This document shows, piece by piece, positions 19,423 to 24,677 of a stretch of 56,145 bases of DNA. Source of the stretch: Bacteroidales bacterium (GTDB lineage: Bacteria; Bacteroidota; Bacteroidia; Bacteroidales; UBA932). Both the position numbers and the translations under genes were made by a program. How positions within the stretch are numbered: position 1 is the stretch's first letter; every line of letters starts with the position of its first letter. Location of the stretch: the NCBI GenBank assembly GCA_017443845.1, contig JAFSXX010000054.1, positions 1-56,145 of the forward strand, read 5' to 3'. The notes under the pieces are model-generated. The model did no database searches, was not told the origin of the DNA, and worked only from the letters and a program-made list of their open reading frames with translations.

Positions 19423-20247
19423 TTAAAACCAACTTTCAACGCTCTCTGTGCCGTTTGTATTAGCGGCGCCCGGAGTCGCGCTCTGGATATACCACTTGCC
19501 GTCGGAGTTGCGGCCATACGAACCGGAAACCTTGCTGCCGGGGTGCTTGAGGATATTGAAGTCATCGATGCTGTTGCCGCTCGGGTCGAAGAGCTGGATG
19601 CGGACGTTCTTCTTCGCGGAGAGACCGGAGTTGAATACCAGTGCGGGATCCCAGTCGGGGTGGTCGGTGGCGATAACGTCCTCGGAGTAGAGAAGCAGGT
19701 ATGCACCGGGATCGAGGACGCGGTTGTCGCCGGTCCAGTTGAGACCCTCATCCTTCTGGATATAGACGCCCTGGAGCTTGATCTTCTGGTCGCCGGCGTT
19801 GTAGATCTCGATGAACTTGTCGTTTCCGTTGAGCTCGTTCAGGCGAAGCTTGGTGTAGTCCTGGGGAACGTCGCCGACGGTATATTTTCCCTTGCTTTCA
19901 GTGGTGTAACCATCGTTGTTCTTGGCAACCACCTTGAATTCAACGGGGCAGTCGTAGGGCTGCGCGGGAATTGTACCCACGAAATCGCCGCCGGTCGCAG
20001 CTCCAGTCATAGGTACAGTGACTTCCGCGCCGCCGCCTGCGGAATAGACGAGGTCGGCGGAGATTCCGCCTCCGATATAGGTGATGAATGCGGTAACAGT
20101 TACGGCATCACCTTCGTTCACAAACTTGGGAGCATAATTAACCGATTCTATCGAGCACTTGCCCTGATAGAGGTTGTCCTTTACGCAGGAGTTGAGCGCA
20201 AACACCGAAAGGAGAAGCGCAGCTGCTAAATATAATACTCTTTTCAT
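19423..20247 (-). CDS. lipoprotein with lamin-tail domain (LTD)
   Basis: A protein of 274 residues from the start at 20247; lipoprotein signal MKRVLYLAAALLLSVFALNSC. Residues ~25-125 look like an Ig-like beta sandwich. Residues ~130-265 match a lamin-tail domain: KLRLNELNGNDKFIEIYN, then IKLQGVYIQKDEGLNW, DPGAYLLLYSED, KNVRIQLFDPSGNSIDD and SYGRNSDGKWYI near the end. Bacterial LTDs occur in exported proteins acting on nucleic acids or phosphoesters, or serve as adhesion modules; here no enzyme domain is attached. It lies 14 nt after the porin gene. Confidence 0.8.
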   Translation of the reverse strand: MKRVLYLAAALLLSVFALNSCVKDNLYQGKCSIESVNYAPKFVNEGDAVTVTAFITYIGGGISADLVYSAGGGAEVTVPMTGAATGGDFVGTIPAQPYDCPVEFKVVAKNNDGYTTESKGKYTVGDVPQDYTKLRLNELNGNDKFIEIYNAGDQKIKLQGVYIQKDEGLNWTGDNRVLDPGAYLLLYSEDVIATDHPDWDPALVFNSGLSAKKNVRIQLFDPSGNSIDDFNILKHPGSKVSGSYGRNSDGKWYIQSATPGAANTNGTESVESWF

Positions 20248-20261
20248 AACTGTCACTGATT

Positions 20262-21666: not shown

Positions 21667-23310
21667 TTATATTGATTTTATAAATTGTATGAGATTGTCG
21701 CTGCGTTGCAGCCCGAGTTTCGAACGGAGGCGGTAGCGGCTTATCTCAACGCTTTTCGGGGTTATATTCATAAGGGATGCTATATGCTTGGACGAGAAGC
21801 CCTGCCGGAGCAGATTAGCCAGCTTGCGCTCGCTCTCAGTCAGGTTGGGATAAGCCTCGCTCAGCCTCATATTGAAATCTTTGTGAAGAATCTCCGTCTG
21901 CGCGTAGAAGTCGTTCATCTCGCGGGAGAAATACATACGGTCGCGGATCGACTTCAGAAGGGAGTCGGTCGCGCGGTCCTTCTCCTGAAGGCCGGTCATA
22001 TGGCGGATATCCTTGAGTTCGGAATATACGTCCTCCATAAAGGCTTTCTGCTCACTGATACCGACGGCGAAGTCCACCAGCTCCTTGCGCTTGATTTCAA
22101 GCTTGTTCAGAAGATCCTTCTCGTTCATTTCGGCCCTTACCTCGATGTCGGCCAGGGACTTGTGGGCGGCATAGGCTTGCTGTTCGCGGCTGCCGATTAT
22201 CTGCTTGCGCAGCGCGCGGTTCCTCTGGGAACGTATATATATGACCAAACTGCTCGAGAGCACGATTATGCCGAGCAGGATAAGCAGCGGGGTCAGGTCG
22301 GTACGCAGGGGGTGGGAGCCGGAGGCCGAGGAGTTGAGTATCACGCAGATGCAATAGCTGACCAGCAGTCCCAGAACGGGCGCCGATGCGGTGGCCACCA
22401 CGCTTTTGACCATCCTGTCCCCTTCCATCGCAGGCCTTCCGCTCACGAGGCTGACGCTGAAGAGCGAAGCCACGAGAAGGGCGGAAACCGAAAGCGGCAC
22501 GGGGGCCAGGTGGATCAGGCTCGGCCATGGAGTGGAGAAGAGAGCCATAGTGATGCCGGAGGCGGCCATCACGGAGAATACCGAAGAGACGGGTATGTCG
22601 AGTTCGATATCGGCTATCCGCCATCCTTCTGAACGGATGGAAGCCAGCAGAAGGACGAAAAGCAGCAGAAGCACGGCGAAGGTCGCGGCGAAAGGAATCC
22701 ACCGGGACTCTCCCAACCCGCTGGTGAAGAGGGAGACGAGCGCCCCGTTATTCCACGCGAAGGCGCCCGCGAAAAGGAGCGCCGCCACAGTGCAGAGGCA
22801 GACCATAAGATTGTCGGCTTTCACCAGATTCCTGGCGCGGGATCCCCTGGGCGAAGTCAGGGCGGCGAAACCGGCAGCGAGGAGGGCGCAAAGCAGCGGG
22901 GCCGCCAGCCAGCTGGCCACGACTCCGACGGTAAGTCCGACTTCGAGGAAGCCTTCGGCCATCAGGCGGCAGCCGAGAAGGGCACCGACGAAGGCGTAAG
23001 GCAGGCTCGTGTAGCGGCTTATCATTCCGGTCACCATAACCGCCACCGCACAGGAAAGCGCTACGGCAAGCAGGGAGGCCGAGCGCGTATAAGGGAATAT
23101 GGCGACAAGGCTGCTGCGGACCGGATCGGCCTCCATAAAGGAAAGCGCGAGGCCGCCGGCAAGAACCAGAGGAAGCAGTATCCTCACCGCCCAGCGCTCA
23201 AGGGCGCCGGAACTCCACACCTCACCGAGCGCCGCGGAAAAATCCCTCAGAAGCAGCGGAATCGCCACCAGCAGGGTTGCCACGCAAACGGTTATGAGGT
23301 GTATCGTCAT
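21667..23310 (-). CDS. PiT-like membrane domain fused to coiled coil and LuxR-type HTH
   Basis: A protein of 547 residues. Residues 1-326 contain about ten membrane segments in two halves that resemble the PiT phosphate-transporter repeats: SLPYAFVGALLGCRL (102-116) followed by VASWLAAPLLCALLAAG matches the PitA SSSHTLIGAIIGIGL/SPIVGLVFAG pattern, and VPLSVSALLVASLFSVS (271-287) followed by KSVVATASAPVLGLL matches the second-half VPVSTTH repeat. The conserved PiT Asn/Asp signature (GxNDxAN-like) is not seen. A further membrane helix (338-359) leads into a long coiled coil (about 362-480) and a C-terminal HTH (LTESERKLANLLRQGFSSKH to the end) of the type found in TPR-TM-HTH regulators. I infer a membrane-bound phosphate-responsive regulator. 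It follows DUF47 by 3 nt. Confidence 0.7.
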   Translation of the reverse strand: MTIHLITVCVATLLVAIPLLLRDFSAALGEVWSSGALERWAVRILLPLVLAGGLALSFMEADPVRSSLVAIFPYTRSASLLAVALSCAVAVMVTGMISRYTSLPYAFVGALLGCRLMAEGFLEVGLTVGVVASWLAAPLLCALLAAGFAALTSPRGSRARNLVKADNLMVCLCTVAALLFAGAFAWNNGALVSLFTSGLGESRWIPFAATFAVLLLLFVLLLASIRSEGWRIADIELDIPVSSVFSVMAASGITMALFSTPWPSLIHLAPVPLSVSALLVASLFSVSLVSGRPAMEGDRMVKSVVATASAPVLGLLVSYCICVILNSSASGSHPLRTDLTPLLILLGIIVLSSSLVIYIRSQRNRALRKQIIGSREQQAYAAHKSLADIEVRAEMNEKDLLNKLEIKRKELVDFAVGISEQKAFMEDVYSELKDIRHMTGLQEKDRATDSLLKSIRDRMYFSREMNDFYAQTEILHKDFNMRLSEAYPNLTESERKLANLLRQGFSSKHIASLMNITPKSVEISRYRLRSKLGLQRSDNLIQFIKSI

Positions 23311-23995: not shown

Positions 23996-24003
23996 CAAAG
24001 GTA
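23996..24003 (-). promoter_or_regulatory. -7 box of the phosphate/TTM operon
   Basis: On the minus strand TACCTTTG, a full TAnnTTTG match, 19 nt before the DUF47 start. No clear TTTG at the -33 distance; an activator or auto-regulation by the HTH protein is possible. Confidence 0.6.
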
Positions 24004-24125
24004 TGAAATTTTATTTTTACTTGGTACGTGCGAAAGGGCTTTGTTGTGTTATTGTAGAGTTTTACATAATGGGAATTAAACCCCTTTGAAGGGAACTTTT
24101 TGTTTCTTTTTCCAAAGAAATCCCT

Positions 24126-24158: not shown

Positions 24159-24677
24159 ATGAAAAAAACTTACTTATATCTGACCGTTACCCTGCTCATA
24201 ATTGCAGGATGCGGCACAGCACAGAAAACAGTTCCCTCTTCCGAGACTGACGATGTTATCAGCGACGGATATATGTCTACCACGACAAAGGACAACACAT
24301 ATTCGATTTCCAAGAAGACAAAGGACCCGAGGCATTATTCAAGTATTTACAGCCTTCTTGAAACTGTCAGCGGAGTGACTGTCGACGGCACCGTCGTACG
24401 CGTCCGCGGAGGATCGAACTCCGTCAACGGCAGCAACGATCCACTCTTCATAGTGGACGGCATCGAAAGGGGCATCAGCGACCTCAACCCCGCTGACGTG
24501 CATTCGGTGGAGGTCATCAAGGATGCATCGGCATCGATTTACGGAATGCGCGGCGCCAACGGTGTCATTATCATCACCACCGAAGGCGCATACCAGATGA
24601 AGCAGAACGAAATCGCGGCCCGTAAAGCCGAGAAAGAGGCCCGCAGGGCAGCAAAAGCAGCCAAAAGAAACAAATAG
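24159..24677 (+). CDS. lipoprotein consisting of a stand-alone TonB-receptor plug domain
   Basis: A protein of 172 residues. Lipoprotein signal MKKTYLYLTVTLLIIAGC. Residues ~60-145 match a SusC-type plug domain: IYSLLETVSGVTVDG, VRVRGGSNSVNGSNDPLFIV, VDGIERGISDLNPADVHSVE, IKDASASIYGMRGANGVIII. There is no barrel after it; the protein ends in a Lys/Arg/Ala-rich tail. Plugs normally gate TonB-dependent barrels, so a free lipid-anchored plug might interact with a barrel encoded elsewhere, or be an evolutionary remnant. tsaE follows after 6 nt. Confidence 0.82.
   Translation: MKKTYLYLTVTLLIIAGCGTAQKTVPSSETDDVISDGYMSTTTKDNTYSISKKTKDPRHYSSIYSLLETVSGVTVDGTVVRVRGGSNSVNGSNDPLFIVDGIERGISDLNPADVHSVEVIKDASASIYGMRGANGVIIITTEGAYQMKQNEIAARKAEKEARRAAKAAKRNK

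Follow-up and report, generated by a model that had tools for sequence, protein, structure and literature searches.

We propose, with a probability of about 0.64, that a Bacteroidales gene encodes a membrane transcription factor derived from the PiT phosphate transporters, which is coupled to PitR and controls its own phosphate-porin operon. The gene lies in the window, by which we mean the whole analysed stretch of 56,145 nucleotides, and its product carries an eroded PiT domain joined through a coiled coil to a LuxR/GerE-type helix-turn-helix (HTH) (Table 1). Homologues fall into eroded fusions, among them the window protein, near-intact fusions that keep more of the transporter signature, and proteins without the HTH (HTH-less). 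Numbers prefixed G and L refer to genomes and loci, respectively.

Table 1. Positions of the fusion gene, its parts, its operon neighbours and its candidate control elements in the window.
Feature	Coordinates	Strand	Details and evidence
PiT-derived membrane domain with TM/coiled coil and LuxR HTH	21667..23310	-	547 aa, ATG start; ORF, GerE match, PiT homology via relatives
Eroded PiT domain, residues 1-335	22306..23310	-	alignments, site counts, hhalign E 2.6e-18
Linking TM helix (341-359) and coiled coil (about 362-484)	21859..22290	-	hydropathy; AF2 model of residues 345-547
LuxR/GerE-type HTH, residues 489-541	21688..21846	-	PF00196; Foldseek
DUF47/PhoU_div (PitR-like) gene, 220 aa	23314..23976	-	PF01865 1.8e-7; 3 bp upstream of the PiT-HTH gene
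Porin_O_P (phosphate-selective porin family), 453 aa	20262..21623	-	PF07396 1.3e-37; 43 bp after the PiT-HTH gene
Candidate operator AAACTCTACAATAACACAACA	24042..24062	-	two repeats at 11 bp spacing, CTCTACA and a weaker one
Promoter box TACCTTTG	23996..24003	-	matches TAnnTTTG; starts 27 bp upstream of the DUF47 start codon

Domain architecture of the fusion protein

The preliminary description of this DNA proposed a PiT-type membrane domain fused to an HTH, and both parts are confirmed, the HTH directly and the PiT domain through its relatives. Residues 489-541 match GerE (6.2e-8, 32.6 bits against a cut-off of 23.5) in hmmscan, and Pfam PHO4 is absent from the hmmscan output for the window protein. 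In a six-frame search of the window's genome PHO4 scored 23.7 bits at 22852-23247, under the cut-off of 33.7; a canonical PiT (273 bits to PHO4) is encoded on a different contig of the same genome. A peptidase identity for the N-terminal part alone was rejected as a chance Pfam match (E 1.9).

The AF2 model of residues 345-547 (mean pLDDT 77, pTM 0.40) consists of one helix of ~90 residues and a four-helix HTH, and the label “coiled coil” denotes this helix model together with a heptad-free inspection. Foldseek matched the tail model best to LuxR-type response regulators and DNA-binding domains (FixJ, VraR and DosR), the best at E 0.004 and none at 0.001 or better. The tail had been described as one normally attached to TPR sensors; TPR sensors do carry it (L012, L025), but it also occurs on a Reg_prop/Y_Y_Y sensor (L005) and is not TPR-specific. 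Another tail relative, L006, has a Y_Y_Y match just below the cut-off. An AlphaFold model of residues 1-345, built from two sequences, has a mean pLDDT of 39, and no claim made here rests on it.

Homology to the PiT family

Profile-profile comparison (hhalign) aligned 28 eroded rows with 35 near-intact and HTH-less rows over 313 columns at E 2.6e-18. Reversed-row controls with the eroded rows gave E values of 0.28 to 0.59, and the reversed controls of the whole-domain and half-by-half comparisons with relatives were at 0.083 or worse. When the eroded proteins and their relatives were compared separately for each PiT half, each half found its own counterpart (E 2e-14 and 2.6e-7). The near-intact fusion L077 in turn aligns with the transporter TmPiT (6L85) at 4e-27. 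Compared directly with canonical PiTs, the eroded profile gives weak values of E 0.0057 (28 rows) and 3.4e-4 (36 rows), and the PiT assignment of the window protein is firm because of the comparisons with relatives.

The repeat blocks first traced at residues 102-145 and 271-320 coincide with the PVST-type segments of both repeats. Within the 36-row eroded set, half 1 matches half 2 over 88 columns (E 2.2e-6). The same comparison with reversed near-intact rows gave E 4.6e-13, which is expected of a repeat read backwards and is therefore no specific control; for the canonical set and for the 28-row eroded set, whether read forwards or reversed, it is void, covering only 13-14 columns from overlapping cuts. 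Taken on sequence, these comparisons indicate that both repeat halves of the PiT family are homologous to the window-type domain.

Distribution and phylogeny

The preliminary description had proposed looking for the same fusion in other genomes, and it is found in its eroded form in 51 of 398 genomes of the family and in its near-intact form, at full length, in 23 of 393 genomes of the order. The family search, with a three-row membrane-domain profile, matched 58 genomes in all, the others being six near-intact (G067, G159, G215, G225, G230 and G252) and one short piece of 188 aa (G260). Within the genus, three of 40 genomes, the window's included, encode the membrane domain, in open frames of 548-554 aa. 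The order-level queries were L077-L080; further genomes matched in part, and one of the 23 full-length matches has an in-frame stop. At class level, two of 395 genomes matched at E at most 1e-100: L118, a fusion matched as two pieces, and L119, without the HTH. A scan of contigs matched two loci, one of them (L037, Devosia) over 58 residues. L077 and L080 combine PHO4 matches of 185 and 188 bits with GerE within one ORF, and in an alignment of 40 full-length proteins GerE is matched by all 40 and PHO4 by 24 (E at most 0.1).

Homologues with the two parts as separate genes had been named as a sign of assembly error. HTH-less homologues do exist, but a separate tail gene was not found in the flanking DNA of six HTH-less loci, so this objection fails in the DNA examined.

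In a 96-row tree the eroded proteins form a single clade (support 100/100) on a long stem (2.49) beside the near-intact L108, a placement that is not firm (94/74; the tree program warned of long branches meeting). The seven rows without the HTH do not cluster together. The 51 genomes with the eroded form are represented by 39 loci with flanks, two of them from one genome (G395); the near-intact G225 and G252 are outside the locus set. The tree and site counts use 36 of the 39 eroded loci, leaving aside the near copies L055 and L064 and L067, where DUF47 is in the same ORF. The near-intact set excludes the cut or truncated L110, L112, L114-L117 and L119, of which L117 and L119 re-enter the HTH-less set as L161 and L162. 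L092, a fusion frame with an in-frame stop, is counted among the 29 near-intact loci of the operator set and is absent from the tree. The in-frame stops in L092 and L112 perhaps mark decaying copies or sequence errors.

Signature decay and shift of conservation

Members of the PiT family carry a GANDVANA-type signature in each half, and the residues critical for transport in PiT2 include D28, S113 and S593 (available text of PMC3126765). The correspondence between PiT2 and window residues used below is our own mapping. Neither the window protein nor the eroded clade carries a GANDVANA-type signature in both halves. Its remnants in the window protein are RDFSAALG at residues 22-29 and the FAWNNG region at residues 183-189 (AWNNGALV). 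Half 1 has lost the Asn of both ND and AN, and half 2 that of AN; D23, S102, N187, N188 and S274 are retained, D23 being the counterpart of D28 and S102 and S274 those of S113 and S593. The site is thus degraded and not blank, and the Asn/Asp signature that had been reported as lost is largely, but not wholly, so.

The near-intact proteins have GAND in half 1 of most members and GANN in half 2. In L077 numbering, N24, Q100, N187, Q288 and G18 are present in 28/28 near-intact rows, against 1/36 eroded rows for N24 and 0/36 for each of the others; G190 falls from 28/28 to 5/36, and the serines at S97 and S285, again in 28/28 near-intact rows, are kept in 13/36 and 15/36. Canonical PiTs have H, K and H (16/16) at the positions of Q100, N187 and Q288, so these three residues mark the near-intact group and are not universal transport residues. 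At D21, the counterpart of PiT2 D28, 20 eroded rows have D and the other 16 have E, and all 36 retain N183. N184, at the position of PiT2 D506, is N in 28/28 near-intact and 19/36 eroded rows, and the column mapped to PiT2 E55 has V or I in 28/28 near-intact rows. Because of these two replacements, transport by the near-intact group is itself uncertain.

Mean pairwise identity in the near-intact group is 0.62 for the PiT domain, 0.33 for the coil and 0.57 for the HTH; in the eroded group it is 0.31, 0.55 and 0.79, respectively. The groups differ in taxonomic breadth, of which the reversal of order within each group is independent. In one clade, as judged from the alignments, the signature has decayed and conservation has moved from the membrane domain to the HTH.

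Operon partners

The adjacent DUF47 gene, a PiT partner, had been cited in support of the fold and does adjoin the fusion gene. DUF47 lies directly upstream on the same strand in 39/39 eroded, 29/29 near-intact and 5/6 HTH-less loci; the 29 near-intact loci were chosen with DUF47 present, and the sixth HTH-less locus starts at a contig end. We take DUF47 to be equivalent to PitR on the basis of gene order and family background. Porin_O_P is found downstream in 39/39 eroded, 26/29 near-intact and 0/6 HTH-less loci. Of the three near-intact loci without the porin, L089 and L107 end at contig ends and L104 has none. The order DUF47-fusion-porin is thereby present at all 39 eroded loci. In G313, DUF47 and the fusion form one ORF of 711 aa (L067, 865-3000, minus strand; L165, 1936-4071, minus strand), circumstantial evidence that the two proteins may be coupled.

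Two further genes flank the window's operon. A lamin-tail-domain (LTD) protein gene (19423-20256, minus strand) follows the porin, as it does in L036 (8062-8889). A TonB plug-domain protein of 172 aa without a barrel (24159-24677, plus strand) is encoded divergently and shares the candidate-operator region, an arrangement repeated in L034 (119-589); this gene may be a second target of the regulator.

The constancy of this neighbourhood bears on the possibility that the eroded PiT domain senses nothing and serves as an anchor for the HTH and a docking platform for DUF47, the DUF47 protein being the sensor. Such a role would suit a fast-evolving membrane domain (mean identity 0.31) with DUF47 beside it at every eroded locus and within the same ORF in G313. 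The acid and the Asn of the old site are nevertheless kept in 36/36 eroded rows, which is beyond the needs of a mere anchor, and we regard this role as unlikely.

Phosphate genes of the host genomes

A further PHO4 match occurs in 14 of the 51 eroded-fusion genomes: ten are standalone proteins (~350 aa), three are of about 750-780 aa and one is a fragment. No second PHO4 match at E at most 0.001 was found in the other 37. Among 34 eroded-fusion genomes, PstB (TIGR00972) is over its cut-off in none and reaches E at most 1e-60 in six. PhoB-like proteins at E at most 1e-50 are found in 5/34, compared with 8/9 genomes that have near-intact or HTH-less forms; over the cut-off, PhoB-like proteins are found in 0/43 genomes, but also in just 2/14 control genomes. 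Such absences are soft, as many of the assemblies are incomplete. Na_Pi_cotrans is present in 33/34 eroded-fusion genomes and is possibly another route of phosphate import.

In the available text of PMC13170248, neither PhoP nor PhoR was found in 228 of 926 genomes, with Bacteroidota among the taxa named, and PitR, whose gene is next to pitA, is described as a repressor of PhoR activity in S. aureus. The main text of that paper does not use the word DUF47.

These data also bear on whether the eroded protein is a transporter still, one that moves phosphate or some other anion in an altered way and has the HTH as an added feedback device. The lack of another PHO4 match in 37/51 genomes would fit, as would the retention in the window protein of N187, N188 and the counterparts of critical PiT2 residues, D23, S102 and S274. 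Against it stand the change of most signature positions in the eroded clade, a membrane domain that is less well conserved than the HTH, and the nearly universal Na_Pi_cotrans importer family in these genomes, and continued transport seems to us rather improbable.

Candidate operator

The DNA around 23996 had been singled out as the promoter region of interest. The choice was near the mark, but the key candidate repeats lie at 24042-24062, just upstream of the TACCTTTG box, whose consensus, TAnnTTTG, we take to be that of the Bacteroidetes -7 box. The candidate operator of the window starts 56 bp upstream of this box, and its second repeat is degenerate.

In the 250 bases before DUF47, CTCTACA occurs on the coding strand at 35 of 37 eroded loci (81 sites; opposite-strand count 6; shuffle mean 0.82 loci). 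Two of the 39 were left out, L055 and also L062, the contig of which starts about 90 bases upstream. Because the repeat was first seen in the eroded set, the near-intact set is an independent test. There it occurs on the coding strand at 16/29 loci (opposite-strand count 2; shuffle mean 0.44) and is the top-ranked 7-mer; CTCTACA or CACTACA is present at 22/29. On the coding strand it was found at 0/5 HTH-less loci, one of which has a single opposite-strand copy (L159, with no upstream DNA, and L135, with too little context, are outside the count). Repeats are most often spaced 11 bp apart (22 pairs).

In the window's genome (G000) the paired pattern occurs once with no mismatch; two matches with two mismatches lie elsewhere, and the backward control gave one. 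A stricter pattern was applied to 60 genomes, comprising the 51 eroded-fusion genomes and nine of the same genus without the fusion. It gave 30 matches in 26 genomes, all of them among the 51, and none in the nine; the other 25 eroded-fusion genomes, the window's included, have no match. By position, 27 of the 30 immediately precede the operon, one (G391) falls close to the end of a contig and two are elsewhere. The backward control of this pattern gave nine matches in eight genomes. In G396 (L202; G396:C34:13198-13215) a second operator-like pair, with one mismatch, lies about 1.8 kb farther upstream than the copy belonging to the operon, near a thioredoxin-like lipoprotein gene. The distribution of the CTCTACA repeats suggests that they are likely the operator of the fused HTH.

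LuxR HTHs are associated with inverted repeats, and direct repeats 11 bp apart are more like the Pho box, which in E. coli has a spacing of 11 bp. The repeats might accordingly belong to another regulator such as PhoB, with the HTH acting elsewhere. Their 7-bp units with a 4-bp spacer resemble that box in commonest spacing, and some eroded-fusion genomes do encode PhoB-like proteins. PhoB-like proteins are however confined to 5/34 of these genomes at E at most 1e-50, the pattern occupies nearly one place per genome, at the fusion operon, and the coding-strand site is missing from all five HTH-less DUF47-PiT operons, although the genomes scanned among them, G598 and G921, encode a PhoB-like protein. 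We therefore think it quite unlikely that the sites serve another regulator.

Ligand

The likeliest ligand of the fusion, judging from family membership and neighbours, would be phosphate. That it is sulfate or another anion is very improbable. The sulfate permease model NF053884 (cut-off 400) does give 59-103 bits for the eight near-intact or HTH-less proteins scanned, but canonical PiTs score 66 and 72 bits (n=2) and CysP-like proteins 207 and 217 (n=2); neither the window protein nor its closest eroded kin gave a match in scans at E at most 1 and 1e-5. DUF47-type neighbours occur at 15/15 canonical PiT loci and 0/9 CysP-like loci, and the porin neighbour also speaks for phosphate. Identity with the CysP sulfate permease is thus disfavoured both by scores below 400 and by the lack of DUF47 at CysP-like loci. 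The Bacteroidales CysP-like proteins (L149-L157) carry IG[SA]NNVANA and have no DUF47-type neighbour.

An assembly error or chance fusion can be dismissed, since the same fusion and gene order recur at 39 eroded and 29 near-intact loci and in JAFZXU010000060.1, a record from a buffalo-rumen assembly.

Proposed mechanism

The eroded fusion is probably a sensor in the membrane that turns genes on or off. The preliminary description saw in it a transporter that had become a one-component membrane regulator or else a transceptor, and this fits best: near-intact fusions exist, the eroded proteins form a derived clade, conservation has shifted, and the candidate operator tracks the HTH.

As a first step, the sequences show a Bacteroidales protein of the PiT subfamily with a DUF47/PitR-like partner joined to a TM-coiled coil-LuxR HTH tail of the kind that sensor proteins carry too. 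The near-intact fusions, with most of the signature kept, may be transporter and sensor at once. In the window's clade, again as the sequences show, most signature positions of both half-sites have changed, and conservation of the coil and HTH has come to exceed that of the membrane domain. The membrane domain would now move little or no phosphate and still report phosphate status, either directly or through the PitR-like DUF47 protein that it holds. Finally, the coil would bring HTHs together in pairs that bind the CTCTACA repeats ahead of the operon; DUF47, the fusion protein and the porin of the outer membrane would all be under their control, and all three would most likely be raised when phosphate is scarce. 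Activation is favoured over repression because the candidate site sits upstream of the promoter box. DNA binding, phosphate sensing, partnership with DUF47 and loss of transport are properties that we infer for the window protein.

Relation to known systems and significance

In the open-licence literature, a scope that leaves bioRxiv outside, no description of a PiT-HTH fusion was found. Transporter folds are reused as sensors or transceptors in UhpC, CbrA and Mep2, which signal through kinases or partner proteins and are not known to do so through a fused HTH. PiT transporters (PF01384; TmPiT 6L85) with DUF47/PitR share with the window type the homologous two-half membrane domain and the DUF47 gene directly upstream; the window clade differs in having most signature positions changed, a C-terminal DNA-binding tail and a porin in the operon.

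The closest described concept appears to be that of the 10-12-TM LuxR regulators DadR, HcdR and CadR of Eggerthella and other Coriobacteriia, which, like the window protein, have a multi-TM N-terminus and a C-terminal LuxR HTH and, according to the available text, activate a neighbouring gene upon exposure to a small molecule (PMC9734109). The window protein differs in its PiT-derived membrane domain, its coiled-coil link and its PhoU-like partner, and the word “transporter” is absent from the main text of that paper. PitR/PhoU-PhoR-PhoB signalling, as presented in the available text of PMC13170248, shares with the window type a PhoU-like protein that is linked to a transporter and acts on gene control; the window type, however, unites the transporter-derived and DNA-binding domains in one protein, in a three-gene operon without kinase or response regulator.

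More tentatively, and at somewhat less than even odds, the homologues may form a living series that leads from a transporter, by way of a transceptor, to a dedicated sensor; a PiT-HTH protein with a PitR-like partner, its own operator and a porin would have replaced the Pst-PhoU-PhoR-PhoB chain as phosphate sensor in a family of Bacteroidales. If true, a transporter would have become a transcription factor stepwise, with the intermediate surviving in sister lineages, and the fusion would be a candidate phosphate sensor for bacteria that mostly lack PstB over the cut-off or a close PhoB. The available text of PMC13170248 calls it unclear why PhoU-like regulators should accompany phosphate transporters if what is sensed is not import. 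Should the eroded protein be dead for transport and yet responsive to phosphate, sensing would need no import.
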